Assembly (NCBI RefSeq): GCF_009923995.1
Contig: NZ_RFSK01000016.1
Coordinates: 1 to 64,000, forward strand
Direction: 5' to 3'
Length of the DNA: 64,000 bases
DNA from: Janthinobacterium sp.
GTDB lineage: Bacteria; Pseudomonadota; Gammaproteobacteria; Burkholderiales; Burkholderiaceae_D
Position 1 is the first letter of the stretch. Each line of letters begins with the position of its first letter. Below are positions 18,899 to 48,154 of the stretch, in pieces. The notes beneath the pieces are model-generated. The model saw only the letters and a list, made by a program, of their open reading frames with translations. It ran no database searches and had not been told where the DNA came from. The position numbers were made by a program, and so were the translations under genes.

Positions 18899-20692
18899 CT
18901 ATTTCGCAAAATGGGCTTCGATTTCCTCCAGGGTCTTGCCCTTCGTCTCCGGCAGCAGGAAGGCGGCAGCCAGGAAGTACAGCACGGTGCAGCCGGCGCC
19001 GAAGAAGAACAGGGTCGAATAGCCGTGCAAGCCCACGGTGGGTAGGAAGATGGCGGCGATCACCGTCGAGACGAACTGGTTGACCAGCAGGGCGATGCTC
19101 ATGCCGTTCGAACGGATGCGCGTGGGCATCAGCTCGGACAGGGCCAGCCACACGCACACGCCGGGACCGACGGCAAAGCTGGAAACGAAGACGCAGATGG
19201 CAATGGCCACCAGCCAGCCATGCGTGGACGAGGGCACGGGACCGAGGCTGGCCTTCTCGATGCGCAGCGGCGCCTCGCGCCCGGCGGCCGGGTCGGCGAA
19301 CGGGTTCAGGTGCAGCTTGCGGAAGAACACGCCGATCACGCTGTCGGCCTGCACGGCGTCTTCGCGGGCGATCGTCACCTGGCGCAGCACCGGGTCGTCG
19401 CTGCGCAGGCTCTTCACGTTGGTGAACGGGCCGTAGGCGTAGGCGATGGTCAGCTGCTGTGGCGTGCCGTCGGCGGCCGCGCCCAGGGCCGCCAGGGTGG
19501 CCGCATCGAGGTGCACGGTCAGGCCGTCGGCCTGCACCTGCGCCGCGATGGCGGGGCGCACGTCGGCCAGGTGCGCTTCGGCGCCGCGGAACAGCAGGCC
19601 GGCCGCCAGCAGCGAGACGACGATGCCGCCCGTGCCCAGCATCAGCAGGAACTTGCGGCCCTTGCGGTCCACCAGCAGCACGGCCACCACCGTCATCACG
19701 GCGTTCAGCACTTTCAGCAGCACGTCGGCCATGTTGGCGGAAGCGCCCGACAGGCCCGCCTGGTTCAGGATATTGACGACATAGGCGAGGATGGAATTGA
19801 TGCCCGTCGCCTGCGTGCAGGCGAGGATCAAACAGGCCAGCAGGAAGGGCAGCACGTAGCGGCGGCTCAGCAGCGGGTCCTTGGCCTTGGCCGTACCGCT
19901 CGTCTTGGCCGCATTTTCGGGGGTATCGAGCATTTCGCGCAGTTCCAGGTCCGCTTCGGCGGGCAGGCGCGTGCGCAGCAGCGACTGGCGCGCCTGCTCG
20001 ATGCGGCCGCGGCGGGCCAGCCAGCGGGGCGATTCGGCCAGCAGCAGGCTGCCGATGGTAAACACGAGGCCCGGCGTCAGGCAGACCCAGAAGATGCTGC
20101 GCCAGGCGTGGTCCTTGGCGGCGAAGATAGCGGCGATGCGGCCCGCTTCCGGCAAGGCTTGCGCCGCCTGCGTGGCCGTTTCCACCGTCTGCGCCTGCAG
20201 CAGGCCGATCAGGGCGGCGGCCACCAGGCCGATGGTCAGCAGCAGCTGGAACAGGGCCGCGCCCCGGCCACGCTGCTGCGCGGGCAGGCATTCGGCCAGG
20301 TACAGGGGCACGACGACGCCGATCAAGCCGCCGCTGATGCCTTGCAGCAGGCGGCCCAGCAGCAGGGGCAGGTAGCCGTCGGCCAGGGCGATCAGCGGGA
20401 TGCTGGCGCTGAACAGGGCGCCGGCCAGGAACATCACCCAGCGCCGGCCCAGCAGGTCGGACAGGGCGCCGGCGAACAGCGACGAGAGGACCGAGCCCAG
20501 CAGCACGGCGGCGACGATAAAGCTCAGCTGCTGGGCCGTCAGTTTCCAGGCCACGGAGGCCGTCGATTCCAGGTAGGGCAGGGCGCCGGCGATGATGCCG
20601 ATGTCTATGCCGTAGAGCAATCCCCCCATGCCGGCAATAAATAGCAGGTAGCGCATGGCCCACACGGGGGCCTTGTGTGACGTGTCGTGCAT
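18899..20692 (-). CDS. MFS sugar porter with enlarged periplasmic loop, AgaP/NagP-like role
   Basis: This 597-residue transporter of the MFS sugar-porter family should import GalNAc or a related amino sugar. Family marks are DLLGRRW (79-85), AESPRWLARRGR (219-230), the second-half VDRKGRK (341-347) and PETKGKTLEEIE at the C-terminus. About 120 residues (369-490) are inserted between TM9 and TM10, making it about 25% longer than usual members; the loop should be periplasmic. The start at 20692 has CGGAG upstream. It is the last gene of the operon, 38 bases behind the deacetylase, which suggests it feeds the pathway. It is not homologous to PTS components; substrate is inferred from context. 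Confidence 0.85.
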   Translation of the reverse strand: MHDTSHKAPVWAMRYLLFIAGMGGLLYGIDIGIIAGALPYLESTASVAWKLTAQQLSFIVAAVLLGSVLSSLFAGALSDLLGRRWVMFLAGALFSASIPLIALADGYLPLLLGRLLQGISGGLIGVVVPLYLAECLPAQQRGRGAALFQLLLTIGLVAAALIGLLQAQTVETATQAAQALPEAGRIAAIFAAKDHAWRSIFWVCLTPGLVFTIGSLLLAESPRWLARRGRIEQARQSLLRTRLPAEADLELREMLDTPENAAKTSGTAKAKDPLLSRRYVLPFLLACLILACTQATGINSILAYVVNILNQAGLSGASANMADVLLKVLNAVMTVVAVLLVDRKGRKFLLMLGTGGIVVSLLAAGLLFRGAEAHLADVRPAIAAQVQADGLTVHLDAATLAALGAAADGTPQQLTIAYAYGPFTNVKSLRSDDPVLRQVTIAREDAVQADSVIGVFFRKLHLNPFADPAAGREAPLRIEKASLGPVPSSTHGWLVAIAICVFVSSFAVGPGVCVWLALSELMPTRIRSNGMSIALLVNQFVSTVIAAIFLPTVGLHGYSTLFFFGAGCTVLYFLAAAFLLPETKGKTLEEIEAHFAK

Positions 20693-20730
20693 GAAAACTC
20701 CGGGACGGGGTTGAGGTGAGGTGAAGTGGT

Positions 20731-21825
20731 CTAGCGGGTGGAAAGATCGATGGCCGTGCCTTCGACGAAGACGGACACTGGCTGCAGTGCCGAATCGAGG
20801 ACGACGATGTCGGCCCAGGCGCCCGGTGCCAGGCGGCCCCGTTCGGATTCGCCCAGGTAGTCGGCGGGGTACAGCGAGAGGCGGTTCGAGGCGTCGGCCA
20901 GGTCCAGGCCCAGCTCGACGAAATTGCGCAGGGCCTGGTCCATGGTCAGCACGCTGCCGGCCAGCGAGCCCGTGGCCAGGCGTACGCAGCCCAGGCATTT
21001 GTAGACGCGCTGCGTGCCCAGGCCGTATTCGCCGTCCGGCATGCCGGTGGCCGAGGTGGCGTCCGTCACGCCGTACAGGCGGGGGATGGCGCGCAGGGCC
21101 GCGCGCAGGGCGCCCTTGGCCACGTGCTGCAGGTCGGGGATGATTTCCGCGTACTCGGCGTGCGCCAGCGCGGCGCCCACCATGCCCGGGTCGTAGTGGG
21201 TCATGCCCGTCATGCCGTTGTACAGGTGGGTAAAGCCGGAGACGCCGGCCTTGAGTGCCGCCACGCCGTCGTCGAACGTGCCGGCGCTGTGGCCGATCTG
21301 CACGCGGATGCCCATCGCCGCCAGCTGCGGGATCAGTTCCAGGTGGCCGGGGATTTCCGGCGCCATGGTCAGCACCTTGATGGGGGCGATGGCGTGGAAG
21401 CGCTGCACCAGCGCCAGGCTGGCCTGCACCACGTCGGGCGGCTGCGCGCCCAGGCGGTGCAGATTCAGAAACGGGCCTTCCAGGTGCACGCCCAGCATGC
21501 GCGCGCCGTTGGCGGGGCGCCCGGCGATGACGCCGGCCAGGCCTTGCAGGGCGCGCAGGATCGACGGCTCCTTCGCCGTCAGGGTGGTGCCCAGCAGGGC
21601 CGTGGTGCCGTGACGCGCATGCACCTGCGCCACGGTGGCGCCCGCGTTGCCGCCTTCCATGATGTCGACGCCGGCCGCGCCATGCACGTGCAGGTCGATG
21701 AAGCCGGGCAGGATGGTCAGCGCGCTGTCGGCGGCAGGGTCTTCTTGTATCTGGACGATACGCTGGTCAAAGGTGATGGTGCCCGTGATCCAGCCAGATG
21801 GGGTAAGGATTCTGCCGCTCAGCAT
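20731..21825 (-). CDS. N-acetyl-hexosamine-6-phosphate deacetylase (AgaA/NagA family)
   Basis: This 364-residue amidohydrolase removes acetate from GalNAc-6-P or GlcNAc-6-P. The metal site shows HVH (His46, His48) in FIDLHVHGAAG, Glu116 in GVHLEGPFLN, and His residues in IGHSAGTFDD and GFTHLYNGM. The catalytic Asp is in GVTDATSATGMPDG. Length is close to NagA (about 380). It sits 3 bases downstream of the DeoR-type regulator gene. AgaS and AgaZ in the operon favour a GalNAc-6-P role over GlcNAc-6-P, but the sequence alone does not separate the two. Confidence 0.9.
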   Translation of the reverse strand: MLSGRILTPSGWITGTITFDQRIVQIQEDPAADSALTILPGFIDLHVHGAAGVDIMEGGNAGATVAQVHARHGTTALLGTTLTAKEPSILRALQGLAGVIAGRPANGARMLGVHLEGPFLNLHRLGAQPPDVVQASLALVQRFHAIAPIKVLTMAPEIPGHLELIPQLAAMGIRVQIGHSAGTFDDGVAALKAGVSGFTHLYNGMTGMTHYDPGMVGAALAHAEYAEIIPDLQHVAKGALRAALRAIPRLYGVTDATSATGMPDGEYGLGTQRVYKCLGCVRLATGSLAGSVLTMDQALRNFVELGLDLADASNRLSLYPADYLGESERGRLAPGAWADIVVLDSALQPVSVFVEGTAIDLSTR

Positions 21826-21828
21826 GTA

Positions 21829-22596
21829 TTATTCCGCTATAAAAAGTTCGATGCCCAGCTTGTGCAGCCCTTCGCGGTACTCCTGGCTGATGCTGGCATC
21901 GGTGATGACGGTATCGACGCGGTCCAGCTGCACGATGCGGTGCAGGCTGACGCGGCCGAACTTCGAGGCGTCCGTGAGGACGATGATTTTCTTCGCCCGT
22001 TCCACCATCTTGTGGTTCAGGCTCGCTTCCGCTTCGTGGTGGGTGGTCACGCCGAACTGCAGGTCGAAGCCGTCCACGCCCAGGAACAGCTTGTCGAAGC
22101 TGTAGGCTTGCAAACAGGTCTCGGCCTGGCTGCCCTGGATGGACAGCGACTGCTTGCGCAGCAGGCCGCCCGTGAGGATCAGGTCCACGCCCGGCGCGTC
22201 GGCCAGTTCCCACGCGATGTTCAGGCCATTCGTCGCCACCGTCACGCCCGTGGCGTCGCGCAGATGGCGCGCCAGCGAGATGGTGGTGGTGCCCGAGTCG
22301 ATGATGATGTTGTCGCCCGGTTCCACCAGCCGCGCCGCATAGGCGCCGATGCGCTCCTTCTGCTCGTGGTTGATGGCATCCTTCTGGCGTATCGTGTGCT
22401 CGGGCGGCGGCGTGCGCGTCAGGGTCGCGCCGCCGTGGCTGCGCGTGGCCATGCCCTGCGCTTCCAGCGCATTCAAGTCGCTGCGGATGGTGACCGCGGA
22501 CACGCCGAGTTTTTCCACCAGATCGGTCACTTGCACCGAGCCCTGCTGGGCAAGCATTTGGAGGATGGATTCACGGCGTTGGCTGGTATTTCGCAT
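21829..22596 (-). CDS. agaR: DeoR-family transcriptional regulator, AgaR-like
   Basis: This 255-residue DeoR/GlpR-type repressor has an N-terminal winged HTH (QRRESILQMLAQQGSVQVTDLVEKLGVSAVTIRSDLNALEAQG). Its C-terminal phosphosugar-sensor domain follows (GDNIIIDSGTTTISLARHL, ATNGLNIAWELADAPGVDLILTGG, FLGVDGFDLQFGVTTHHEAEA, IIVLTDASKFG). AgaR proteins repress GalNAc genes and respond to a pathway sugar phosphate. The gene lies inside the operon it should control. CGAAAG-type repeats near all three promoters of the locus resemble the CTTTCGTTT elements of AgaR sites in enterobacteria, which supports the name. Confidence 0.88.
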   Translation of the reverse strand: MRNTSQRRESILQMLAQQGSVQVTDLVEKLGVSAVTIRSDLNALEAQGMATRSHGGATLTRTPPPEHTIRQKDAINHEQKERIGAYAARLVEPGDNIIIDSGTTTISLARHLRDATGVTVATNGLNIAWELADAPGVDLILTGGLLRKQSLSIQGSQAETCLQAYSFDKLFLGVDGFDLQFGVTTHHEAEASLNHKMVERAKKIIVLTDASKFGRVSLHRIVQLDRVDTVITDASISQEYREGLHKLGIELFIAE

Positions 22597-22631
22597 GGTG
22601 GCGGGCTCGGTAAAAAGTGAAAATACCGAGC

Positions 22632-23975
22632 TTAACAGATTGCCGCTTCGGCAATGGCGGGGACTGCCGCATTGCGGTTGCAGGCACGCGCATATTGCGC
22701 CAGCAGGCTGCCGATCTTGTGCTCGATCAAGGCCGGCGCCTTGGCTGCCAGGCTGCCCTGCACGACGGCCAGGTACTGTTCCGGCAAGTGCTGGCTCAGG
22801 AGCGGTAGGGGAATGTCCACGCTCTCCAGATTGGCCAGCAGCCTGGCGACGGCAGCCGCCACTTCCAGCTCGCCCCAGTAGTAGCGGCAACGGTCGCTCA
22901 AGCCGTAGCGGCGCATCAATCGCTGCTCTTCCGGCGTGCCCAGGTAATGCTTGATCCAGTTCTTCGGCTTGGCCACCATGACGTCGTCGAGCACCTGCAT
23001 CAGCTGCGAGGTGGCGGGCGCCGGCAGCAGTTCTTCCTCGATCTGGCACAGGGCGAACAGCGCTTCGCGCAGGGCGAAGGTGGCGGCCGGGCCCACTTTC
23101 AGGATGGCGAAATGGTCGCGCACCATGGCGTGCAGGGCGGACTCGCGCTGGTAGTCGGTGGAATGGGCTTCGAACACGAGGCCGGGCTGCTCGGCGACAA
23201 AGGCCGACAGCTCGGCGGCGGCATCGGCGTCGTAATGCTGGATGCTGCGCTGGTCGAAATCGACGCCCGGCTGCACCACCATGGCGATGACGCGGCGCCA
23301 GGCGCCATGCAGGCCGTTGTCGAGGAAGGCGCGGCAATGCACGTCGAGCGTGCGGCGCGCCGCCTGCGGGCTGGTGACGGCGCCGGCCTGCGCCAGCGAC
23401 GCTTCGCCGCCCGGAATCGGCACTTCCGTGCCGATCACGTAGACGGGCGGGGCGAAGCCGGCGGCGGCGGCGGCCTGCTCGGCCACCTTGCACAGGCGCG
23501 CCGAGCGGGCCGCCACGGTTTCATCGTCCAGCTGCAAGGGATCATCAACGCAGCGCATGCTGCAATCGAGGTGAATCTTGTGGAAGCCGGCCGACGCATA
23601 CGCGGCGATCAGGGTCTCGGCGTGGTCCATGGCGGTGGCCGCGTCCAGGTGCTGCCAGGCGTTCGGACCGAGGTGGTCGCCGCCCAGCACCAGGCGGGCG
23701 GCAGGGAAACCCTCTTCCCGCGCCATTGCCAGCATGGCGTCGCGGAAGGCGGCTGGCGTCATGCCCGTGTAGCCGCCGAACTGGTCGACCTGGTTCGACG
23801 TCGCCTCGACCAGCAGCACCGTGTCGTAGTCCAGCGCCACGCGCATGGCGGCGCGCAGCACGCTCGGGTGGCTGCAGCAGACGGCGTACAGGCCCACGCG
23901 CTCGCCGCGGCGGTGCGCCTTGATCACTTGCTGGATGGGCGAAAGCGTAAAGGTCGGGGTTTCCACTGGATTCAT
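22632..23975 (-). CDS. agaZ: AgaZ/GatZ/KbaZ-family protein (tagatose pathway)
   Basis: This 447-residue protein is of the D-tagatose-1,6-bisphosphate aldolase GatZ/KbaZ family: SPIQQVIKAHRRGERVGLYAVCCSHP, LLVEATSNQVDQFGGYTGM, LGGDHLGPNAWQ, GFHKIHLDCSM, VIGTEVPIPGGE and FEAHSTDYQ. GatZ was described as a non-catalytic aldolase subunit; later work on GalNAc pathways proposed a tagatose-6-P kinase role for AgaZ. No class II catalytic partner (AgaY/KbaY/GatY) is in the window, so the aldolase must be elsewhere. It lies between the ROK kinase (5-base gap) and agaR genes and is the main reason to read the operon as GalNAc rather than GlcNAc catabolism. Confidence 0.88.
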   Translation of the reverse strand: MNPVETPTFTLSPIQQVIKAHRRGERVGLYAVCCSHPSVLRAAMRVALDYDTVLLVEATSNQVDQFGGYTGMTPAAFRDAMLAMAREEGFPAARLVLGGDHLGPNAWQHLDAATAMDHAETLIAAYASAGFHKIHLDCSMRCVDDPLQLDDETVAARSARLCKVAEQAAAAAGFAPPVYVIGTEVPIPGGEASLAQAGAVTSPQAARRTLDVHCRAFLDNGLHGAWRRVIAMVVQPGVDFDQRSIQHYDADAAAELSAFVAEQPGLVFEAHSTDYQRESALHAMVRDHFAILKVGPAATFALREALFALCQIEEELLPAPATSQLMQVLDDVMVAKPKNWIKHYLGTPEEQRLMRRYGLSDRCRYYWGELEVAAAVARLLANLESVDIPLPLLSQHLPEQYLAVVQGSLAAKAPALIEHKIGSLLAQYARACNRNAAVPAIAEAAIC

Positions 23976-23980
23976 CGTTC

Positions 23981-24928
23981 TCAAGCCTTTGTATGTTGTC
24001 GTATCAATAGGGCCGCGCCGCGCGCGCCGCCGGCGTCGCCAAAGCGGGGCGGCAGGATGGGCGGCACGTGCACGCCGGGGAACAAATGGCGTTTCACGGC
24101 GGCCGGCAGCCTGTCGTACAGGTGCGGCAGCTTGGACAGGCCGCCGCCGAGCACGATGACGTGCGGGTCGTAGGCCAGCACCAGGCCGGCCAGCGCGTGG
24201 CCGAGCAGGTCGAGGTGCACGGCCACCGTGCGTTCGGCCACGGCGTCGCCCATGTTGGCGCGGGCGACGATGGCCAATGGTTCGGCGCCATCGCCGCCGA
24301 AATGCGCATGCAGCTTGCGCATGGCGGGGCCGGAGACATAGCGTTCCAGGCAGCCCGCCTTGCCGCAGGGGCAGGCATATTCCGCCAGGCCGTGCTGCGC
24401 CAGCAGGGTGGCGGGCAGGCTCCAGTGGCCCCACTCGCCGGCCACGCCATTGAAGCCGCGCAGCAGCTGGCCGCCCACGCAATAGCCGCCGCCGGCGCCC
24501 GTGCCGAGGATGGCGCCGAACATGCTGGCCGCATGGTCGGCCGCGCCGCCCTGCGCTTCCGACAGGGCGAAGCACTGGCAGTCGTTGCCGATGGCGACGG
24601 GGCGCTGCAAGGCCTGCTGCAGCGTCTGCGCCACGAGGCGGCCGTTCAGGGCCGGCACGTTGGAACTGAGCTGGCGGCCGCTGGCGCTGTCGATCACGCC
24701 GGGCAGGCCGATGCCGACGGGCGCCGCCATGCCGAGCGCGGCGTCGCCGCGCGCCACCAGGCCGGTGATGGCTTGCACGAAGGCGGCAAAATCGTCGCCC
24801 GGCGTGGCGACGCGCTCGCGGAAGACTTCCTCCAGCGCGCCATCGCGGTCGGCAAACGCCACCAGCTCCATCTTGCTGCCGCCGATGTCGATGCCGTGAA
24901 AGCCTGGCAGTTGATTAGAATTGGTCAT
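23981..24928 (-). CDS. ROK-family amino sugar kinase (AgaK/NagK-like)
   Basis: This ROK kinase of about 315 residues should phosphorylate GalNAc (or GlcNAc) at C6 with ATP. The N-terminal phosphate loop is GIDIGGSKMELV. NDCQCFALSEA and ILGTGAGGGYCVGG are ROK signatures, GVAGEWGHWSL holds the first zinc ligand, and CPCGKAGCLERYVSG is the zinc-binding ROK signature. A C-terminal VIVLGGGLSKL motif closes the fold. The start is either ATG 24928 or 24934; both lie inside the 3' end of agaS, so the genes overlap and are probably coupled. AgaK of Shewanella is a characterised kinase in comparable non-PTS loci. Confidence 0.87.
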   Translation of the reverse strand: MTNSNQLPGFHGIDIGGSKMELVAFADRDGALEEVFRERVATPGDDFAAFVQAITGLVARGDAALGMAAPVGIGLPGVIDSASGRQLSSNVPALNGRLVAQTLQQALQRPVAIGNDCQCFALSEAQGGAADHAASMFGAILGTGAGGGYCVGGQLLRGFNGVAGEWGHWSLPATLLAQHGLAEYACPCGKAGCLERYVSGPAMRKLHAHFGGDGAEPLAIVARANMGDAVAERTVAVHLDLLGHALAGLVLAYDPHVIVLGGGLSKLPHLYDRLPAAVKRHLFPGVHVPPILPPRFGDAGGARGAALLIRQHTKA

Positions 24929-26063
24929 GGCCATAGATGGTGACGCCCTGCACGACACGGTTGACGATGCCGCCGGCGAATGGATTGTCGGGGCGCAGTT
25001 GCAGCAGCGCGGACTGGTGCAGCGCAAATTGCTGCGCCATCAGCAGCCATAAAGGCGCCAGCCAGGCGTCGGGCCAGGCCGGCGCGTCGGCCGCCAGGTT
25101 GGCAGACAAGTCGCCGCCGATGCCCACCGTCAGGCAGCGCTGCGCCACGCTGTCGCGCTGCAGTTCCTGCAGTAAATCGTCTTCGTACTGGCGCGCCAGC
25201 GGCTTGCTGCTGCGCAGCAGGATCACCAGCGACTCCGTCGTGACGGCCGATTTCGGGCCGTGGCGGAAGCCCAGCGGCGTATTTGCCATGGCCATCACGC
25301 GCCCGCCCGTCAATTCCAGGATTTTCAGGGCAGCTTCCTTGGCCAGCGCCTCCAGCGGGCCGCTGCCCAGGTAGACGACGCGCTGCACGGGGGTTGATCC
25401 CAGGTCCGCCACGGGGGCCGACCAGTCGCGCAAGGCCTGTTCGCCCAGCTGCGCCAGGGTGCCCAGGCGGGCGAGGTCCGAGTCCTTGCCCAGCACGGCC
25501 AGCGCCGCCAGCAGCATGCTGGTAAAGCTGCTGGTCATGGCGAAGCCGCGGTCGCAGCTACCGGCCGGCATCAGCAGGTTATAGGTGTTGCTGTCGTTGG
25601 CGCCCTGGCGCGCCAGCTTGCCGTCCGCATTGCAGGTGATGTTCAAAAAGCGCGCGCCGGGCACGACCTGGCGCAGCAGTTCCACGGCGGCCAGGCTTTC
25701 CGGGCTGTCGCCGCTGCGGGCAAACGAGACGAGCAGGGTGGGCGCCTCCGCTTCCAGATACAGCTCATGGTGGGTCAGCAGGGTGGTGGTGGCGAGGGCG
25801 CGGATCTGCGCGGGCCAGGCTGCATTCAGGGTATCGGCGACGATTTCGCCGACATAGGCCGAACTGCCGGCGCCCGTCAGGATGACGCGCTGCGCCGGGT
25901 TGGACAGGGCCTCGCCCAGGAAGGCGGCCAGGGCGGCCTGCTCGTCGCGCAAAATGGCGGCCAGCGCGCGCCAGATGGCGGGCTGGTGGGCGATTTCCTC
26001 GGCCGTGTACAGGCCGCCGATGTCGCGCCAGGATTGTGTGTCACGCTGCAGAAGGGTAGTCAT
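24915..26063 (-). CDS. agaS: SIS-domain sugar isomerase/deaminase AgaS
   Basis: This 382-residue AgaS-family protein converts galactosamine-6-P to tagatose-6-P and ammonia. Two SIS domains are visible: about 40-190 (RVILTGAGSSAYVGEIVADTL, LLVSFARSGDSPESLAAVELL) and about 215-370 (VVYLGSGPLEALAKEAALKILELTGGRVMAMANTPLGFRHGPKS). The RHGPKS stretch is the family's catalytic-site region. It is the first gene of the - strand operon, with a clear sigma-70 promoter and a tandem repeat upstream. The alternative reading, a GlcN-6-P deaminase (NagB-II), is chemically close and not excluded. Confidence 0.9.
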   Translation of the reverse strand: MTTLLQRDTQSWRDIGGLYTAEEIAHQPAIWRALAAILRDEQAALAAFLGEALSNPAQRVILTGAGSSAYVGEIVADTLNAAWPAQIRALATTTLLTHHELYLEAEAPTLLVSFARSGDSPESLAAVELLRQVVPGARFLNITCNADGKLARQGANDSNTYNLLMPAGSCDRGFAMTSSFTSMLLAALAVLGKDSDLARLGTLAQLGEQALRDWSAPVADLGSTPVQRVVYLGSGPLEALAKEAALKILELTGGRVMAMANTPLGFRHGPKSAVTTESLVILLRSSKPLARQYEDDLLQELQRDSVAQRCLTVGIGGDLSANLAADAPAWPDAWLAPLWLLMAQQFALHQSALLQLRPDNPFAGGIVNRVVQGVTIYGHDQF

Positions 26064-26093
26064 GTGAGGTCAGTAAAGTGTTTGTTGTGAGAA

Positions 26094-26146
26094 AGCATAA
26101 ATACTAAATTTCGAAAAGTCAAATACGAAAGTAAAACGAAAGTAAA
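26094..26146 (-). promoter_or_regulatory. agaS operon promoter with tandem AgaR-type operator
   Basis: On the - strand a -35 TTGACT (26122-26117) and a -10 TATGCT (26099-26094) are separated by exactly 17 bases, 31 bases from the agaS ATG. Immediately upstream lie two perfect tandem copies of the 11-mer ACGAAAGTAAA (26125-26135 and 26136-26146 on the + strand), i.e. CTTTCGT repeats on the operon strand. This matches the style of AgaR operators. Confidence 0.7.
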
Positions 26147-26254
26147 TTGTTGCGTGACTTGCGAAATAATGTCGTTTTATGGGCGCTGAAGTGTGCTGCA
26201 GTGCCGCATAAGTGCCATGTGGAACCCGCTGTCGCTGCGGTCTGTCGCTGAAAT

Positions 26255-26394
26255 GCCACGATAACGAAAGTATTTTTTGTGACATTTTGGTGAAACGTAA
26301 GATAAATGCGCCAATTTTGGGCATTTTATTAATTAATTAGCGTCAAAACTTTCTTTTGATTGACGATATTTATTTTTCTTCTTAAAGTATTTCC
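26255..26394 (+). promoter_or_regulatory. GH31 gene promoter module, copy A
   Basis: A sigma-70 promoter TTGACG (26360-26365), 17-base spacer, TAAAGT (26383-26388) lies 35 bases before the GH31 start. CGAAAG-type elements sit at 26264-26274 (ACGAAAGTATT) and near 26292-26307 (GAAACGTAAGATAAAT), and a CTTTCTTTT element at 26349 touches the -35. The whole 140-base block aligns without gaps to 33067-33206; the promoter-proximal 46 bases match at 41. The 359-base gap 26064-26422 holds this module and the divergent agaS promoter and no gene. Confidence 0.72.
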
Positions 26395-26422
26395 ATCACT
26401 TTGATTTCCTGAAAGCCGACAG

Positions 26423-29773: not shown

Positions 29774-29799
29774 CCGCAATCACTTCATTTCACCAAAAC

Positions 29800-29828
29800 G
29801 AGCCCCTCTTCGGACCGGGGATGGGCTC
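29800..29828 (+). terminator. Weak intercistronic hairpin
   Basis: GAGCCC (29800-29805) pairs with GGGCTC (29823-29828), with inner CCTC/GGGG pairing possible. A short TT follows only. It lies between the GH31 and receptor genes and may attenuate or process a common transcript rather than end it. Confidence 0.35.
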
Positions 29829-29872
29829 TTGCAACCTTACGAAAACAAATCACTTATAAAAGGGAGTCGGGA

Positions 29873-32857: not shown

Positions 32858-32964
32858 CGCGTGACCTGTCCCGGCCCGTCAGCCGCCATGGTGGCGGGGC
32901 GGGATAGTGCCATGAAAAGAAAAAGACAACATCCTGAAATACGCAATACGAAAGATAAACGTAA

Positions 32965-33001
32965 GCGAAAGGCGATCGCCATGTCGTCTTTCGCGATTTT
33001 T
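32965..33001 (+). terminator. Terminator after the first glycan receptor
   Basis: GCGAAAG (32965-32971) pairs with CTTTCGC (32988-32994), enclosing a GCGATCGC palindrome; a T-rich tract follows (32997-33001). It lies 108 bases past the receptor stop. The 503-base gap 32858-33360 contains this hairpin, another ACGAAAGATAAACG operator-like element overlapping its 5' side (32948-32961), and promoter copy B; no gene is seen. Confidence 0.6.
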
Positions 33002-33066
33002 CTTCCCAATTCCTGCGCGGATTCGCCTCCGCCCACCACTTCTCCGCATGCGCATGTATCCCTCAC

Positions 33067-33206
33067 GCCACGATAGCGAAAGTTATGTGTAGCTCATTCA
33101 AGCGAAACGAAAGATAAATTGCCTTTATTCGCTGAATTCAGCGATAAATTGCCGTTATAACTTTCTTTTTATTGACGATGCTTATTTTTCTTTTTAAAGT
33201 ATTCCC
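33067..33206 (+). promoter_or_regulatory. Receptor-GH109 operon promoter module, copy B
   Basis: TTGACG (33172-33177), 17-base spacer, TAAAGT (33195-33200) forms a sigma-70 promoter. Upstream are GCGAAAGTTAT (33076-33086), GCGAAACGAAAGATAAA (33102-33118) and CTTTCTTTTT touching the -35. Every element is at the same distance from the promoter as in copy A (offset 6812 bases throughout). The leader to the receptor ATG is about 150 bases, much longer than for copy A. Confidence 0.72.
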
Positions 33207-33360
33207 AAGAAACGAAAATTGGCCGAGACGGACCGATTTTCCGGAAGGTGCGGCTGCCCGGCCCTGCCTTCCGGCGAAGACCATAAAAATGGCGCCCCCC
33301 ACAGCTTCGCCCTGGAGCGGGAAGGGCGCTGATAACCCTCGATATAGACGGAGAGACACC

Positions 33361-36300
33361 ATGCATAGCACCCGACTCAAATTGCGCGACATCAGCCGCG
33401 CCGCCGCGATCGTCATCGCGCTGGCCGCCGGCGTGCCAGGCCAGGCCTGGGCACAATCGAATGCCACCAGTACCATCTTCGGCGAAGTGAGCGCGCCGGC
33501 CGGCGCCACCGTGGTACTGCAAAACCTGGCGACGGGCGTGCAGCGCACCCTGACGCCCGATGCGTCGGGACGCTATGTGGCCAACTCCATGCCGCCGGGC
33601 CGCTACGCGGTGCGCGTGCTGCGCGCCGGCACGGTCGAGGCGACGCAGGAAGTCGAAGCCCTGATCGGCGCCGGCGCCGAAGCGAACTTCGGCCCGGCCA
33701 GCGCGGCAGGTCCCGTGGGCCAGGAGCAGACCGTCGTCGTAAAGGCTTCGCGCAATCCGATCGACGTGTCGAACACGAACAATGGCGTGATCTTCACGGC
33801 CAAGGAATTGAAGGCACTGCCGGTCGGGAACGACGTGGCGTCCATCGTGCAGCTGACGCCGGGCGTGTCGCGCGGCACCAACAGCGTGTACGGCAATGCG
33901 CCGTCCATCGGCGGTTCGGGCCAGTCGGAAAACGCGTTCTACGTCAACGGCTTCCCCATCACGAACATCCTGACCCAGGTGGGCGCGTCGGAACTGCCGT
34001 TCGGCGCCATCTCGAACATGCAGGTGCTGTCGGGCGGCTACGGCTCGGAATTCGGCCGTTCCACGGGCGGCGTGATCAACATCACCACCAAGAGCGGCGG
34101 CAACAAGGTGGAATTCGGCGGCAAGGTCTCCATCATTCCCCGCTCGCTGAAGGGCGACCCGGAAAACACGTACTATCCGAACACGGGCGCCAATCCCAAG
34201 ACGGATGGCAATCTGCTGTACTGGAACCGCGACAATGGCAGCACCAGCAAGGTCGTGGGCCTGTATGGCAGCGGTCCCCTGATCAAGAACAAGCTGTTCG
34301 CCTTCGTGGCGCTGGAACAGACGCGCACCGATGGCCAGGCCGTGGCGGCGGCCGCCGATGCGGGCACGGCCCTGTCGCGCGGCTGGAGCACCAGCCAGAG
34401 CAAGGTAGACCGCATGATGGCCAAGCTCGATTACAACCTGACGGACGACCATCACTTCGAATACACCAAGCTGTATGACCGCACGCGCACGGACAGCCAG
34501 TCGTATGGCTACAGCTACGACACGCATGCGAGCAACGGCATCCAGTCCGGCAAGGGCGAGAGCACGACCAACTGCTGCGGCTCGTCGGCCGCGCCAGGCG
34601 CGAACATCGACATCTTCAAGTACACGGGCTACCTGACGGATAATCTGACGGTGACGGCAATGATGGGCGAATCGCGCACGTCGCACCGCCGTACGCCGAA
34701 TGGCTACGACCCGCTGCTGGCGCAGACGTCGTCGAATGCCTCCACCCAGGTGCCAGGTTTGAGTTACGCCAATCCGCAAACGGTGACGGGCACGCTGATC
34801 GACCCGTCGTCGGAAGACCGCCAGAAAGCCAAGCGCCTGGACCTGGAATACAAGCTGGGCAAGCACTCGCTGCGCGGCGGCATCGACCGCATCGACGTGG
34901 AATCGAAGGTGGGCCTGAGCCTGGCCGGCGGCTACCGCTGGAGCTACCAGAAGGCGGCAGACCCGAACCGGGCCATCAACGGCGCGTTTGAAACGCCGGC
35001 GCAGGGCGGCGGCTACGGCGCGCAGGGCTACTACGTCAGCAAGGACCTGAACGCCAACTTGGCGCGCCCCACCAGCGTGCAATCGGCGCAGTACATCCAG
35101 GACCACTACCAGGTCACGGAACGCGTGCTGCTGGACCTGGGCCTGCGCCGCGAACAGTTCACCAATTACAGCACCGATGGCGTGGCCTTCATTTCGCAGC
35201 GCAACATGATCGCCCCGCGCGTGGGCGCCACCTGGGATTACCTGGGCGACGGCACGCTGAAATTCTTCGCCAACGGCGGCCGCTACCACTTGCCTGTGCC
35301 GTCGAATTTGTCGAGCAACATGGCCAGTCCCTTCCTGGCCACGAGCGAAATGTTCACCTACACGGGCGTCGATCCGGTGACGGGCGCGCCGACGGGCCTG
35401 CACGCCATCAGCAAGCCGTATTCGGCCAACAACGCGTATGGCCAGAGCCGCGATGCGCGAGAGGTGACGGCCATCGGCCTGAAACCCCTGTCGCAGGACG
35501 AATTCTCGCTGGGCTTCGAGCGCGCCCTGAGCAAGAAGCTGGTGGTGGGCGCCAGCGTCCTGTACCGCAAGCTGAACGACACCAACGACGACGTCTGCGA
35601 CGAGCGTCCGCTGCAGGCCTGGGCCACGCGCAACAGCGTCGACACCAGCAACTGGGGCGGCTTCCAGTGCGCCATCATCAACCCGGGCCGCGACAACAGC
35701 CTGATGGTGGACTTCGACGATGGCAAGGGCCTGCGCCGCGTGGATATTTCGGCGGCCGAGTGGGGCAACCCGCTGCCGTCGCGCACCTACCGCGCCCTGA
35801 ACCTCTTCGTCGAGCACCCGTACACGAATGGCTGGTACGGCAAGCTGACCTACACCCTGTCCGGCCTGAAGGGCAATATGGAAGGCCAGACGGACAGCAT
35901 CGGCGGCGGCGACGTGGGCCTGACGGTCAGCGACGACCACAAGGAGCTGATGTACAACGCCTATGGCTACCTGCCGGGCGACCACCGCCACGCCTTCAAG
36001 GCCTACGGCTTCATGCAGGTGCTGCCGGACGTGACGGTGGGCGCGAACATGTCGCTGATCTCGGGCGCGCCGCGCAACTGCATCGGTGCGCTGCCCGATG
36101 ACCTGAAGTTCGAGAACGACTATGGCGATTCCTACTTTTATTGCAATGGCAAGCCGGCGCCGCGCGGCAGTCAGGGCCGCCTGCCATGGCAAGCCCAGCT
36201 GGACATGAATGTGGCCTATACTCCCAGCGCCATCAAGGGCCTGAGCCTGAAGGTGGACGTGTTCAATGTGTTCAACAGCCAGACGGTGACCCGCTATAAC

Positions 36301-36402
36301 GAAACGCGCGAAGACCACGGCGCCATCGCCCGCAACTACCTGCAGGTGGCTGGCCGCACGGCACCGCGTTCCGTGCGCTTCACGGCTGAATACACCTATT
36401 AA
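33361..36402 (+). CDS. TonB-dependent receptor with N-terminal carboxypeptidase-regulatory-like domain (Oar-type)
   Basis: This 1013-residue outer-membrane receptor has a signal peptide ending QAWAQ and an N-terminal beta-sandwich of the carboxypeptidase-regulatory type (about 38-110, STIFGEVSAPAGATVVLQNLATG...DASGRYVANSMPPGRYAVRV). The plug follows (NGVIFTAKELKALPVGNDVASIVQLTPGVS, SGGYGSEFGRSTGGVINITTKSGG) and a large barrel ending TAEYTY. This architecture is found in Oar-like and SusC-like receptors for large ligands. The start at 33361 follows GGAGAG; upstream open frame is only the promoter region. The next gene is a GH109 enzyme 64 bases on, so its ligand is probably an N-acetylgalactosamine glycan. 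Confidence 0.87.
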   Translation: MHSTRLKLRDISRAAAIVIALAAGVPGQAWAQSNATSTIFGEVSAPAGATVVLQNLATGVQRTLTPDASGRYVANSMPPGRYAVRVLRAGTVEATQEVEALIGAGAEANFGPASAAGPVGQEQTVVVKASRNPIDVSNTNNGVIFTAKELKALPVGNDVASIVQLTPGVSRGTNSVYGNAPSIGGSGQSENAFYVNGFPITNILTQVGASELPFGAISNMQVLSGGYGSEFGRSTGGVINITTKSGGNKVEFGGKVSIIPRSLKGDPENTYYPNTGANPKTDGNLLYWNRDNGSTSKVVGLYGSGPLIKNKLFAFVALEQTRTDGQAVAAAADAGTALSRGWSTSQSKVDRMMAKLDYNLTDDHHFEYTKLYDRTRTDSQSYGYSYDTHASNGIQSGKGESTTNCCGSSAAPGANIDIFKYTGYLTDNLTVTAMMGESRTSHRRTPNGYDPLLAQTSSNASTQVPGLSYANPQTVTGTLIDPSSEDRQKAKRLDLEYKLGKHSLRGGIDRIDVESKVGLSLAGGYRWSYQKAADPNRAINGAFETPAQGGGYGAQGYYVSKDLNANLARPTSVQSAQYIQDHYQVTERVLLDLGLRREQFTNYSTDGVAFISQRNMIAPRVGATWDYLGDGTLKFFANGGRYHLPVPSNLSSNMASPFLATSEMFTYTGVDPVTGAPTGLHAISKPYSANNAYGQSRDAREVTAIGLKPLSQDEFSLGFERALSKKLVVGASVLYRKLNDTNDDVCDERPLQAWATRNSVDTSNWGGFQCAIINPGRDNSLMVDFDDGKGLRRVDISAAEWGNPLPSRTYRALNLFVEHPYTNGWYGKLTYTLSGLKGNMEGQTDSIGGGDVGLTVSDDHKELMYNAYGYLPGDHRHAFKAYGFMQVLPDVTVGANMSLISGAPRNCIGALPDDLKFENDYGDSYFYCNGKPAPRGSQGRLPWQAQLDMNVAYTPSAIKGLSLKVDVFNVFNSQTVTRYNETREDHGAIARNYLQVAGRTAPRSVRFTAEYTY

Positions 36403-36466
36403 CCGCATGCCGGCCTGCCTTGCGGCGGGCCGGCCCATGATTACCAACGGAAGTGAGAAGAGACCA

Positions 36467-37858
36467 ATGACGACACAATTCAATCGCCGCAATTTCCTGT
36501 CCGCCAGCGCCGCGCTGGCCGGTGGCGCCATGGCCGGCAGCGCACTGCTGCCTGGCGGCGCCGTCGCCGCCCCGGCCGCCGGCCGCGACAAGGTCCGCCT
36601 GGGCGTGATCGGCACGGGCATGCGCGGGCAGGTGCTGCTGGCCGAACTGGTGCGCCGCGATGACGTGGAAGTGGTGGCGCTGTGCGATATCGAACCGATC
36701 ATGCTCAAGCACGCGCTGGGCCAGGTGGAAAAGGCCGGCAAGCCCCGTCCGCGCACGTATGGCGAAGACCGCGATCAGAAAGCCTACAAGCGCATGCTGG
36801 ACGCGGGCGGCCTCGATGGCGTGATCATCGCCACGCCGTGGGAATTCCACGCGCCGATGGCGATCGCCGCCATGCAGGCAAAGGTCGCCGTCGGCTGCGA
36901 AGTGGTGGCCGGCATCACCCTGCAAGACCACTGGGACGTCCTGAATACCCAGCTGAAAACGGGCACGCCGTACATGTTGCTGGAAAACGTATGCTACCGT
37001 CGCGACGTGATGGCGGCGCTGCAGATGGTGCGCGCCGGCCTGTTCGGCGAACTGGTGCACCTGCAAGGCGGCTACCAGCACGATTTGCGCGCCGTCAAAT
37101 TCAACAGCGGCAATCCGGCCAAGCCGTACGGCGGCGGCGTGGAATTCGGCGAAAAGGGCTGGTCGGAAGCCCATTGGCGCACGCAGCATTCGGTCGAACG
37201 CAATGGCGAGCTGTATCCGAGCCACGGCATCGGCCCGTGCGCCATGTACACCAACATCAACCGCGGCAACCGTTTTACGCGCATCAACGCCTTCGCCACC
37301 AAGGCGCGCGGCCTGCACGACTACATCGTCAAGCAACCGGGCGGCGCGCAGCACGCGAACGCCAAGGTCAAGTTCAAGCTGGGCGACGTGGTCACGACCA
37401 CCCTGGCATGCGAAAACGGCGAAACCATCATCCTGCAGCACGACACGAGCCTGCCGCGCCCGTACTCGCTGGGCTTCCGCGTGCAAGGCACGGACGGCCT
37501 GTGGATGGACTTGAATAATGCCATCCATATCGAAGGCGTCAGCAAGCCGCACCAGTGGGATGACTTCAAGGCTTACCAGGACAAGTACGACCATCCCGTG
37601 TGGCGCAAGTATGCGGCGCAGGCCGAGGGCGCGGGCCACGGCGGCATGGACTTCTTCGTCATCCACGCCTTTGTCGAAGCCCTCAAGGCCAACGCGCCGA
37701 TGCCGATCGATATCTATGATGCCGTGACGTGGAGCGCCATCACGCCCCTGTCCGAACAGTCGATCGCCGCCAACTTCCAGACCCTGGACTTCCCCGACTT
37801 CACGGGCGGGCAGTGGAAGTCGCGCAAGCCGATCTTCGCCCTCGACGGCAAGTACTAA
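36467..37858 (+). CDS. GH109 family glycosidase, probable NAD-dependent alpha-N-acetylgalactosaminidase
   Basis: This 463-residue enzyme of the Gfo/Idh/MocA fold matches GH109. A Tat signal (NRRNFLSASAALAGGAMAG) is followed by the NAD-binding motif VIGTGMRG (47-54), IATPWEFHAPMA (121-132), GCEVVAG (143-149), ENVCYRRD, the hallmark YPSHGIGPC (250-258), and GHGGMDFF. GH109 enzymes cleave alpha-GalNAc with a tightly bound NAD+ by oxidation, elimination and re-reduction; Tat export fits folding with the cofactor in the cytosol. The start at 36467 follows a GAGAAGAG stretch. It is cotranscribed with the receptor and ends in a strong terminator. Members with other sugar specificities exist, so GalNAc is likely but not certain. 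Confidence 0.87.
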   Translation: MTTQFNRRNFLSASAALAGGAMAGSALLPGGAVAAPAAGRDKVRLGVIGTGMRGQVLLAELVRRDDVEVVALCDIEPIMLKHALGQVEKAGKPRPRTYGEDRDQKAYKRMLDAGGLDGVIIATPWEFHAPMAIAAMQAKVAVGCEVVAGITLQDHWDVLNTQLKTGTPYMLLENVCYRRDVMAALQMVRAGLFGELVHLQGGYQHDLRAVKFNSGNPAKPYGGGVEFGEKGWSEAHWRTQHSVERNGELYPSHGIGPCAMYTNINRGNRFTRINAFATKARGLHDYIVKQPGGAQHANAKVKFKLGDVVTTTLACENGETIILQHDTSLPRPYSLGFRVQGTDGLWMDLNNAIHIEGVSKPHQWDDFKAYQDKYDHPVWRKYAAQAEGAGHGGMDFFVIHAFVEALKANAPMPIDIYDAVTWSAITPLSEQSIAANFQTLDFPDFTGGQWKSRKPIFALDGKY

Positions 37859-37866
37859 GCCTGCAC

Positions 37867-37903
37867 AACCCGCTACCGCGCCTGCCGCCGTAGCGGGTTT
37901 TTT
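37867..37903 (+). terminator. Rho-independent terminator after GH109 gene
   Basis: AACCCGCTAC (37867-37876) pairs perfectly with GTAGCGGGTT (37890-37899) around a 13-nt loop, and six T end at 37903. This closes the receptor-GH109 operon 9 bases after the stop codon. Confidence 0.93.
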
Positions 37904-37993
37904 CTGTCCCTATCCGTTTTTTCAACCGCGGCGTGCGCCGCAGGACGCTCTGCGCCTGCTGCCCGCCGCAAGCTGTACCTCCAGGAGACGTCG

Positions 37994-39304
37994 ATGAAAC
38001 ACAGAAGTGCAGTACTCTACGCAGTCCTTTCCAGCGCACCGCTGCTGCTGGCCGCTTGCGGCAGCAGCGGTGCCGGCGCCAGCGTGATCAAGGCCGAAAC
38101 GGGCCTGGCACCCGTGGCGGGCACGCCGGCTACCGTGGCCCTGGCAGGCAATGCCTTCATCACCAGCGCCGACGCCAGCGCGCAGGAAGTCATCAATGAC
38201 AATGGCCTGGCCAACTGGACCAGCCCGAACACGGTGACGAGCACGTATTTCCGCGTCGGCGCGGCCGGTCCCGTGACGGTGGCGCTCGACGCCCGGCTGG
38301 CCGGCAGCACCAGCAGCGTGGTGCGCGTGACGGTCGACGGCCAGCCTTTCGACGTGGCCCTGGCGGGCACGGCCAGCAAGACGTATGCCGTGGGCACGGT
38401 CAATGTGGCCGCGCCAGGCTATGTGAAGGTGGACTTGCGCGGTGTGAGCAAGGCGGGCGGCTATTTTGGCGACGTCGCGGCGCTGAAGGTGACGTCGAAC
38501 GCCACGCTCAACTACGCCAGCGATCCGGCCAACTACTACTGGTCGCGGCGCGGCCCGTCCGTGCACATGGGCTACACGGTGCCGGCCAATACCGAGTATT
38601 TTTATAACGAGATGACGATACCCCAGGGGCAGGATGCCATCGGCTCTTACTTCATGGCCAATGGCTTCGGCCAGGGCTACATGGGCATCCAGGTAAAATC
38701 GGCCAGCGAGCGCTGGATCCTGTTCTCCGTGTGGGATGCGGATAATGGCGCCAAGACCACCCTGGTGAGCAAGGGTGCGGGCGTGGTCGACAACGCATTC
38801 GGCGGCGAGGGCACGGGCGGCCAGACCTATCTGTCATACAACTGGGCGGCCGGCACCACCTACCGCTTCATCACGCGCGCGCGGCCGGACGGCAACGGCG
38901 GCAGCGACTATTCCGCCTGGTTCTTCGCGCCCGAGACGGGCAAGTGGCGTTACATCGCCACGTGGAAGCGCCCGGCCATCAGCACGTATCTGACGGGCGT
39001 GCACTCTTTCCTCGAGAACTTCATCGACACCAGGGGCTACACGGAACGCCGCGTGCAGTTCGGCAACCAGTGGGCGCGCAATGTGTCGGGTGCGTGGTCG
39101 GAAGTGACGGCCGGGAGGTTCACGGGCGACGCCACGGCCACCAACGCGCAGCGCATGGACTACGCGGGCGGCGTGGAAAACGGCAGGTTCTACCTGCATA
39201 ACGGCGGCTTCTTCGCCGACTACGTGCAAACCGGCCAGAACTTCACGCGGCCCGCGACGGGGCAGGCGCCTGCCGTCGACGTGGCGGCCTTGCCGCTGCA
39301 GTAA
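37994..39304 (+). CDS. DUF3472 lipoprotein with DUF5077-like N-terminal domain
   Basis: This 436-residue predicted lipoprotein has the lipobox LLAAC with Cys22. The N-terminal region (about 45-165) is a DUF5077-like beta-sandwich (STYFRVGAAGPVTVALDARLAG, YVKVDLRGVSKAGGYFGDVAALKV). The rest (about 175-420) is DUF3472: SVHMGYTVPANTEYFYNEMTIP, GSYFMANGFGQGYMGIQVKS, ILFSVWD, and a repeated aromatic pattern suited to glycan binding. DUF3472 proteins recur in polysaccharide utilisation loci but have no proven activity. It follows the GH109 terminator by 90 bases; a GGAGA site precedes the start. A role in binding or debranching the same glycan is an inference from position. Confidence 0.8.
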   Translation: MKHRSAVLYAVLSSAPLLLAACGSSGAGASVIKAETGLAPVAGTPATVALAGNAFITSADASAQEVINDNGLANWTSPNTVTSTYFRVGAAGPVTVALDARLAGSTSSVVRVTVDGQPFDVALAGTASKTYAVGTVNVAAPGYVKVDLRGVSKAGGYFGDVAALKVTSNATLNYASDPANYYWSRRGPSVHMGYTVPANTEYFYNEMTIPQGQDAIGSYFMANGFGQGYMGIQVKSASERWILFSVWDADNGAKTTLVSKGAGVVDNAFGGEGTGGQTYLSYNWAAGTTYRFITRARPDGNGGSDYSAWFFAPETGKWRYIATWKRPAISTYLTGVHSFLENFIDTRGYTERRVQFGNQWARNVSGAWSEVTAGRFTGDATATNAQRMDYAGGVENGRFYLHNGGFFADYVQTGQNFTRPATGQAPAVDVAALPLQ

Positions 39305-39350: not shown

Positions 39351-39395
39351 CAGGGCTTCCTCGGGATGGTTGCGCGGGACCAGGTCGCCAGTTAG

Positions 39396-39414
39396 AATGC
39401 GAATCATTATTATT
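39396..39414 (+). promoter_or_regulatory. Fur box upstream of second fecI
   Basis: The 19-mer aatgcgaatcattattatt closely matches the Fur consensus and ends 18 bases before the GTG start of the sigma gene. Its left half (aatgcgaat) is identical to the left half of the box at 7262, which guards the other fecI. Confidence 0.8.
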
Positions 39415-39432
39415 TGCGCATGAGGATATCCA

Positions 39433-40946: not shown

Positions 40947-41029
40947 ATATTTTCAGAAAAGTGAGGGGTTTGCGGTTTTCGCGTGACAAGCACAGTGAAC
41001 CCTTCATTCACTTTCTGGAAAATCGTCCC

Positions 41030-44509: not shown

Positions 44510-44527
44510 CTAGTCACTTTTGCCGAT
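44510..44527 (+). promoter_or_regulatory. Recurrent nitrate-locus motif upstream of narK
   Basis: The 18-mer CTAGTCACTTTTGCCGAT lies 119 bases before the narK start. Near-identical copies (16 of 18) occur upstream of narG (48596-48613, opposite strand) and nnrS (60092-60109), so it is a candidate operator for the local NarL or another respiratory regulator. No clear FNR half-site pair was found nearby. Confidence 0.5.
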
Positions 44528-44645
44528 ACAGCTATCCAGATTGCCTTCCCAGAATCACCCTGTGGCCGATAGTGCCTTGCGCGCCTGCCACGTAAGCTGG
44601 TCGGGACGGCTGGCCAGACGGCCAGTGCATTCATGGAGAAACATC

Positions 44646-47329: not shown

Positions 47330-47387
47330 AGCTGGACTGCCCGGCAAGCCATGCTTGCCGGGCGCCGTATGAGTACGAGAGGTAGAA

Positions 47388-48074: not shown

Positions 48075-48114
48075 ACCCGGAAGTGAGATGCCGGGGCCGG
48101 ACCCTCAGGGGCCG

Positions 48115-48135: not shown

Positions 48136-48154
48136 TGAAAATGTCATTAACTGC

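Follow-up and report, generated by a model that had tools for sequence, protein, structure and literature searches.

What might an environmental bacterium harvest with two glycosidases, two outer-membrane receptors and a sugar pathway encoded side by side, and how could that pathway reach central metabolism when its locus holds no tagatose-bisphosphate aldolase? These questions are raised by positions 18899 to 39304 of a 64,000-nucleotide stretch of Janthinobacterium sp. (assembly GCF_009923995.1, contig NZ_RFSK01000016.1, positions 1 to 64,000), the whole of which is called the window. The analysis points to a locus that probably harvests N-acetylgalactosamine (GalNAc) from proteins with mucin-type (Tn-like) O-glycans or from comparable glycans that contain alpha-GalNAc, and in which AgaZ, acting as an epimerase, would complete the catabolic route. 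All eleven genes named in a preliminary description of the window were recovered from open reading frames and family scans, in the order and on the strands given there, with six aga-type genes on the minus strand and the glycosidase, TonB-dependent receptor and DUF3472 genes diverging from them on the plus strand.

In the proposed mechanism, a DUF3472 lipoprotein at the surface or in the periplasm would trim O-glycopeptides, which two TonB-dependent receptors would bring in; alpha-GalNAc would be freed in the periplasm by a GH31 enzyme (exported via Sec) and an NAD-dependent GH109 enzyme (exported via Tat, the twin-arginine pathway), and GalNAc would enter the cell through a major facilitator superfamily (MFS) porter. 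A ROK kinase would then form GalNAc-6-phosphate, a NagA-type enzyme galactosamine-6-phosphate (GalN-6-P) and AgaS tagatose-6-phosphate, which AgaZ would epimerise directly to fructose-6-phosphate, so that neither tagatose-6-phosphate kinase nor tagatose-bisphosphate aldolase would be needed. The most likely route is thus GalNAc to GalNAc-6-phosphate, GalN-6-P, tagatose-6-phosphate and fructose-6-phosphate, and the agaS, GH31 and receptor 2 promoters would be repressed by AgaR via CGAAAG/CTTTC sites until GalNAc or its phosphate is present. Substrates, transport directions, induction and all the enzymatic steps are what we infer from the sequences.

Conservation of the Locus in Related Genomes

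Relatives were collected by a scan with agaZ, from which the best 80 of at least 541 were taken with flanks of 10 kb per locus, several of them ended by contig ends. AgaR and agaZ were present in 80 of 80 loci, agaK in 79, agaS in 78, the deacetylase in 75 and the MFS porter in 74, and on the divergent side GH31 was present in 73, receptor 1 in 60, GH109 in 42, receptor 2 in 16 and DUF3472 in 14 of the 80. The aga genes present lay on one strand in every locus (80/80), the complete set of six was found in 72/80, and GH31 was divergent from the aga genes in 73/80. Chance clustering of the locus genes was ruled out, since this collinearity of the aga genes and the divergent position of GH31 hold across the 80 relatives, and the search for the same gene set in related genomes that had been suggested earlier did find it recurring. 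The hosts included Janthinobacterium, Duganella, Massilia, Rugamonas and Pseudoduganella; Roseateles, Pelomonas and Paucibacter; and Stenotrophomonas, Lysobacter, Luteimonas, Pseudoxanthomonas and a few others. The locus spans Oxalobacteraceae, Roseateles-type bacteria and Xanthomonadaceae, and the gene set is not special to Oxalobacteraceae. The locus is a conserved variant and not an isolated curiosity.

Within the bacterial family of the window's host, a GH31 match was observed in 34 of 245 genomes and was close (at least 74% identity, the window's own counted) in 25, among which the six aga genes were present in 17 of 17 fetched loci. One observation counts against the proposed explanation: aga genes were absent from the fetched stretches of all nine loci with a distant GH31 (57–62% identity). 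These nine were excluded from the site and synteny counts, and neighbours were scanned in two of them. They form a second GH31 group (L057–L065) with the same catalytic motifs and no adjoining aga genes, where the neighbours include recA in L063, and a thiolase and a Na/H exchanger in L060. In a wider but sparse class sample, agaZ was matched in 7 of 370 genomes, two only weakly.

Several variations were also observed. No deacetylase or porter of the locus type was found beyond agaR in 5 of the 80 loci (L121, L122, L124, L154 and L155), and in L121 the next scanned gene past agaR is uvrC, on the opposite strand. GH31 is in two pieces in G190 (one contig) and G146 (two contigs), which may represent a frameshift or an assembly break. 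Eleven family genomes (G188, G166, G089, G222, G040, G121, G133, G210, G126, G214 and G111) harbor a higher-scoring PF08013 gene (618–647 bits) and no GH31 match, and perhaps use a tagatose or galactitol route.

Glycosidases GH31 and GH109

The GH31 enzyme (26423–29773, plus strand), which carries a Sec-type signal and F5/8 and NPCBM domains (Pfam), found its best solved match in the alpha-GalNAcase of entries 6m76, 7f7q and 7f7r (365 bits over residues 140–725; the next protein reached 189 bits). Its D379 aligns with a column that reads D, N and A in 6m76, 7f7q and 7f7r, the residue being mutated in the latter two. D379 and D430, the aspartate of the WTGD motif, were kept in 90/90 GH31 sequences from aga-type loci, at least 11 of which are duplicates (one gene reached via two handles), and in eight of nine distant homologues, the ninth showing a gap; the assignment of the GH31 acid/base motif is one that we presume. 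The GH109 enzyme (36407–37858, plus strand) matched 2ixa at 493.7 bits over residues 61–483, up to its end, and retained the GAGHGG stretch. The class features were present, namely the PF21252 C-terminal domain (281 bits), the NAD-binding fold (GFO_IDH_MocA) and the GGHGG-type loop, whose histidine was found in 16/16 relatives with a letter at that place, 40 of the 56 related sequences being cut short or gapped there. A twin-arginine-like motif was observed in 47 of the 56, some of which are duplicates. The N-terminal motifs, which we take to be a Sec signal in GH31, a twin-arginine signal in GH109 and a lipoprotein box in the DUF3472 protein, suggest export of the three by these respective means. 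The nearest solved proteins of both enzymes, 6m76 and 2ixa, are alpha-GalNAcases, in agreement with what had been proposed for the pair, and alpha-GalNAc is their likely target. According to the accessible part of PMC11992087, the GH31 enzyme of Bacteroides thetaiotaomicron acted on mucin alone and not on blood-group A, and GH109 also acted on the A and Tn antigens.

The DUF5077-DUF3472 Protein and the Probable Substrate

The last gene of the locus encodes a DUF5077-DUF3472 protein with a lipoprotein-like start (37994–39304, plus strand), assigned by family scan and structure comparison. Among solved proteins, the one nearest to it is 4qhw (E 6e-95, 39% identity, Z 20.9, root-mean-square deviation (rmsd) 19.4 across two domains), whose title says only 'putative two-domain sugar hydrolase', and the next is HC7 (8pn3, 8pn5 and 8pmu; Z 16.3 over 184 residues, rmsd 3.0, and E 1.5e-9 in a profile search). 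The portion available of PMC13003899 describes HC7, from Bacillus cereus K8, as a di-glutamate mucinase whose cleavage is efficient only on Tn and T mucins. In the profile alignment, E341 of the window protein stands opposite Glu200 of HC7, the residue mutated in the Glu200Ala entries, a mutant that was crystallised with a glycopeptide, and E272, within the GGEGTG motif, stands opposite E131. Both residues were kept in 14/14 aligned DUF3472 sequences, the window's included (14 of 18 sequences from 17 loci and the window, four cut-short ones being omitted and L053 being the same gene as L113). From the likeness to HC7 and the kept residues, the protein is therefore predicted with moderate confidence to be an O-glycopeptidase of the di-glutamate mucinase type, and the earlier guess of a mucin-like substrate is strengthened by the resemblance to the DUF3472 domain of a mucinase.

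DUF3472 also co-occurs with the close GH31 among the 245 family genomes. Strong matches (>280 bits) were present in 22 of the 25 genomes with close GH31 and in 6 of 220 others (p 6.5e-23), in 7/10 and 6/216 once the window's genus was excluded (p 3.5e-8), and in 22/25 and 13/220 at the family's own cut-off (p 2.3e-19); these p-values are optimistic because the genomes are related, the 280-bit limit was set after the scores had been seen, and the positives are defined by the set of 25. The six exceptions with strong DUF3472 include G069, G176 and G227, which carry a distant GH31, and G199 and G219, in which roughly 7 kb separate a PF08013 gene from DUF3472. A peptidase role is weakened by the HC7 similarity, which is confined to the DUF3472 domain with some 20% identity, and by a weak structure model (mean predicted local distance difference test (pLDDT) score 59.3). 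A further point against the proposed explanation is the presence of DUF3472 in only 14 of the 80 loci, many of which have flanks that stop short of its place.

The alternative that survives best would have the GalNAc come from bacterial surface or biofilm polysaccharide instead of animal mucin, with the DUF3472 protein being a sugar-binding protein or a glycosidase. The DUF5077 half does resemble carbohydrate-binding modules of families 35, 36 and 6, the title of 4qhw mentions a sugar hydrolase only, and the host genera are mostly soil and water bacteria. For a soil consortium, staining with lectins moreover showed a matrix that contains GalNAc, as reported in the available text of PMC11985002. 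Against it, the DUF3472 half has retained the GGEGTG motif and the glutamate of HC7, and a Bacteroides GH31 alpha-GalNAcase was active on mucin but not on the blood-group A structure (PMC11992087, in the part cited above). As an alternative about the substrate, it partly coincides with the glycoprotein explanation; we regard it as a real possibility that falls clearly below an even chance. Feeding on O-glycoproteins, the preferred explanation, would point to the use of mucin-type glycoproteins by soil, water and opportunistic bacteria, and the locus would supply candidates for enzymes that cleave O-glycopeptides and remove alpha-GalNAc, which could be useful in glycan analysis.

AgaZ and the Missing Aldolase

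The agaZ gene (22632–23975, minus strand) encodes a member of the GatZ/KbaZ family, predicted to be a tagatose-6-phosphate/fructose-6-phosphate 4-epimerase, which passed the cut-off of TIGR02810 (600 bits against 568.8) and whose nearest solved relative is GatZ (2fiq). Residues C20, E44, D87, H88, E171, H257 and K279 (E. coli GatZ numbering, checked on 2fiq) were invariant in 81/81 agaZ proteins, from the 80 loci and the window. As described in the accessible part of PMC11907403, E. coli GatZ and KbaZ turn fructose-6-phosphate into tagatose-6-phosphate with an active site proposed from models. AgaZ is like them in its family and in having all seven of the proposed residues. Unlike them, the present agaZ lies in a GalNAc operon and has no partner aldolase.

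A search of the 80 loci with the class II aldolase of the window genome as query (E 1e-5) revealed no such enzyme near agaZ, and the catalytic subunit of tagatose-bisphosphate aldolase (KbaY/AgaY) was found neither in the 80 loci nor in the window genome. This genome, listed as 100% complete, contains a single class II aldolase, which lies between pyk and purC and is of the fructose-bisphosphate type (TIGR01521, 589.8 bits against a cut-off of 496.35; tagatose-type TIGR01858, 216.9 against 443.55). The 32 genome entries with agaZ comprise 26 with one class II aldolase, one with two (G108) and five with none, two of these last being complete S. maltophilia chromosomes (SJTL3 and D457); the coordinates of entries G614 and G123 are the same, and the two probably represent a single genome. 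G108 is an 82%-complete assembly, and its second class II aldolase is a fructose-bisphosphate aldolase. The aldolases of the window's relatives scored about 305–324 bits, with that of G551 standing apart at 239 bits. A LacD or LacC branch was also rejected, as LacD was absent in 23 of 23 and no 1-phosphofructokinase/LacC-type kinase exceeded its cut-off in the window genome (eight weak matches), the only genome searched for LacC. The window genome has one phosphofructokinase (PFK)-family protein, of the diphosphate-dependent subfamily, and one PF08013 protein, which is agaZ.

Read most simply, these sequences have AgaZ complete the pathway by itself at fructose-6-phosphate, which would explain the missing catalytic aldolase subunit. 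The preliminary description had ended the route at tagatose-phosphate, which would be a dead end here, AgaZ being best read as a tagatose-6-phosphate/fructose-6-phosphate 4-epimerase, and it had called the locus complete. The eleven genes are there, but with no tagatose-bisphosphate aldolase in the locus the pathway is complete only if agaZ encodes an epimerase.

Several observations count against an aldolase-free route. A class II aldolase is carried by 27 of the 32 agaZ genome entries; the aldolase of G551, which exceeded none of the NCBIfam cut-offs, could act on tagatose bisphosphate; the window genome has, besides the PFK-family protein, a fructose-bisphosphate aldolase that might handle tagatose phosphates at a low rate; and the absence of aldolases covers class II and LacD, as class I fructose-bisphosphate aldolases were not searched. 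They leave room for the classical tagatose route, in which AgaZ would be a helper or a tagatose-6-phosphate kinase, the PFK-family enzyme would phosphorylate and the housekeeping fructose-bisphosphate aldolase would cleave tagatose-1,6-bisphosphate. The available portion of a 2025 review (PMC12118421) still draws the pathway with tagatose-6-phosphate kinase and tagatose-bisphosphate aldolase and repeats the proposal of AgaZ as a kinase, and both enzymes that this route would borrow, the diphosphate-dependent PFK-family protein and a class II aldolase, are encoded in the window genome. That lone aldolase is, however, of the fructose-bisphosphate type and sits between pyk and purC, five of the 32 entries lack any class II aldolase that AgaZ could help, the search of the 80 loci gave none, and AgaZ carries the active-site residues proposed for the epimerase, so we consider the classical route unlikely. 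As a separate observation, the agaZ of G551 (locus L182) is partial, lying at the end of a contig, and the aldolase of this genome is a possible genuine partner.

The AgaZ-epimerase route would amount to a testable correction of the GalNAc pathway as drawn, as a class II catalytic subunit can be missing from genomes whose annotation includes a 'non-catalytic aldolase subunit'. A few narrow literature searches, covering sources in part, found nothing that links tagatose-6-phosphate 4-epimerase to GalNAc. Taken jointly, environmental Proteobacteria that feed on O-glycoproteins by a DUF5077-DUF3472 di-glutamate O-glycopeptidase, two unrelated alpha-GalNAcases and an aldolase-free AgaZ branch are a tentative picture, to which we give slightly less than an even chance; if it is true, the peptidase role of the DUF5077-DUF3472 branch and the short AgaZ branch of GalNAc catabolism would be new.

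Other Genes of the aga Operon

The remaining genes of the minus strand were assigned with differing strength. The MFS sugar porter (18899–20692), a candidate GalNAc permease, matched Sugar_tr at 285 bits and passed TIGR00879 (249.3 bits, cut-off 237.8), and agaR (21829–22596), a DeoR-family repressor, passed NF040755 AgaR (330.1 bits, cut-off 260), so that AgaR, agaZ and the porter are the locus proteins above their NCBIfam cut-offs. The NagA-type N-acetylhexosamine-6-phosphate deacetylase (20731–21825), with a predicted AgaA-like role, scored just below TIGR00221 (219.8 bits, cut-off 225.65) and has NagA 2vhl as its best solved relative. The ROK sugar kinase (23981–24934), predicted to be a GalNAc kinase (agaK), had the N-acetylglucosamine (GlcNAc) kinase model NF009835 as its closest (261 bits, below the cut-off of 380) and the GlcNAc kinase 7p7i as its nearest solved protein. 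The agaS-like protein (24915–26063), a predicted GalN-6-P deaminase/isomerase whose nearest solved relative is 3c3j, reached 400.1 bits (E 8.6e-120) with TIGR02815 of the AgaS family, its best model despite a cut-off of 529.2.

The matches of the locus proteins to NCBIfam models support the non-phosphotransferase (non-PTS) aga-like pathway proposed earlier. Two points weaken the assignment, namely that kinase, agaS and deacetylase all score below their own cut-offs, and that kinase and deacetylase resemble GlcNAc enzymes most closely. A GlcNAc or mixed hexosamine locus, in which these two would act on GlcNAc and the glycosidases on another alpha-linked target, would fit a kinase nearest to NagK and a deacetylase nearest to NagA, but agaS, agaZ and AgaR are of the galactosamine type, GH31 and GH109 match alpha-GalNAcases best and the set is collinear in relatives, which makes it very improbable. 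The locus would work like an aga pathway and is a variant rather than a classical member, since no tagatose-bisphosphate aldolase was found and the AgaS protein fell below its model cut-off.

Predicted Regulation by AgaR

The CTTTC sequence was reportedly given as an AgaR motif by Leyn and colleagues in 2012. CGAAAG was detected in 71/71 agaS-GH31 intergenic regions, with 330 copies overall, where 100 shuffles gave 33 on average and at most 51. A composite site, roughly TTTCGAAA(A/T)GTCAAA..GAAAG, covers the agaS -35 element in 64 of these 71 regions, by a pattern that was drafted after five of the sequences had been inspected, and the AGTCAA in it, read on the other strand, gives the agaS promoter -35 sequence TTGACT found in the promoter scan. 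In the window, site and promoter scans of the divergent agaS/GH31 promoter region (26064–26422) revealed CGAAAG at 26126, 26137 and 26265, TTTCGAAAAGTCAAATACGAAAG over the agaS -35 element and CTTTC beside the GH31 -35 element. The promoter region of receptor 2 (32858–33360) contains CGAAAG at 32949, 32966, 32988, 33077 and 33108, and TTGACG-17-TAAAGT at 33172–33200, an arrangement common to the GH31 and receptor 2 promoters, with ACTTTC immediately upstream in both. Eight of the 22 CGAAAG copies of the window fall in these two intergenic regions (862 bases), with a binomial probability of 2.9e-10 that assumes an even spread and ignores base composition. As expected for AgaR, CGAAAG/CTTTC are predicted AgaR-type sites at three promoters.

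The regulatory case rests on the conservation of these sites, because the promoter and terminator scan was overall not above chance. Four sigma-70-like matches were found against 2.5 (standard deviation 1.6) in shuffles, and terminator-like matches in the region numbered 7 against 13.2 in shuffles, that is, no excess. It is further weakened by two of the five receptor 2 copies forming the arms of a terminator-like stem (32965–32994), and by the tight pair CGAAAGTnnnnCGAAAG, which occurs once genome-wide while a reversed control pattern occurs 15 times, with no enrichment. Receptor 1 (29873–32857, plus strand), a TonB-dependent receptor with Plug and beta-barrel domains, has no site of its own and starts 99 bases past GH31. 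Receptor 2 (33361–36402, plus strand; family scan, start chosen) carries a carboxypeptidase-regulatory-like domain. Between GH109 and DUF3472, the stretch 37868–37905 (plus strand) holds a terminator-like 9-bp stem and T-run (37868–37898), judged by eye, and no AgaR-type site was found upstream of the DUF3472 gene that follows, a further point against a single control. The control by one regulator that had been claimed for the whole set is thus upheld in part, by sites at the agaS, GH31 and receptor 2 promoters, and is not supported for DUF3472.

Comparison with Known Systems

A Shewanella non-PTS aga pathway whose AgaR has CTTTC-type sites was reportedly described by Leyn et al. in 2012. The present locus is like the Shewanella pathway (gene list in the available part of PMC2996990) in its permease, GalNAc kinase, deacetylase, AgaS and outer-membrane receptor, and it differs by having no tagatose-bisphosphate aldolase and by the two alpha-GalNAcase-like enzymes and DUF3472 that adjoin the pathway. 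The polysaccharide utilization locus (PUL) BT4240-4250 of B. thetaiotaomicron, together with BT3169, offers complementary GH109/GH31 alpha-GalNAcases, an MFS porter, a GalNAc kinase and a mucin peptidase as in the present case, whereas its import is of the SusC/SusD kind, an M60-like peptidase takes the place of DUF3472 and its GH31 (BT3169) lies outside the PUL, the present GH31 being within the locus (PMC11992087, as far as the portion available describes it). A SusC/SusD-type (Bacteroidetes PUL) locus was considered and rejected, the SusC model scoring 35.5 bits against a cut-off of 368.25 and no SusD domain being detected among the scanned proteins. The DUF3472 domain, the Glu200 equivalent and the GGEGTG motif are shared with HC7, which is described with a CBM5 (PMC13003899, accessible part); the window protein has an N-terminal DUF5077 and a lipoprotein-like start.

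Genes beyond the Locus

Directly beyond the locus (39385–43492) lie genes for a FecI-type sigma factor (39433–39942), FecR and a FauA/FhuE-like siderophore receptor, and the GAATGCGAATCATTATTATTTGC stretch upstream of the FecI genes looks like what we take to be a Fur box. These genes, past 39305, were considered as part of the locus and set aside by their iron-system families; they probably constitute a separate iron system. A FecR match was observed beside one related locus (L046), and most other fetched stretches end before that place. Further on, 44520–54029 contains two MFS genes followed by the nitrate reductase alpha and beta subunits, and the MFS pair may be nitrate transporters.

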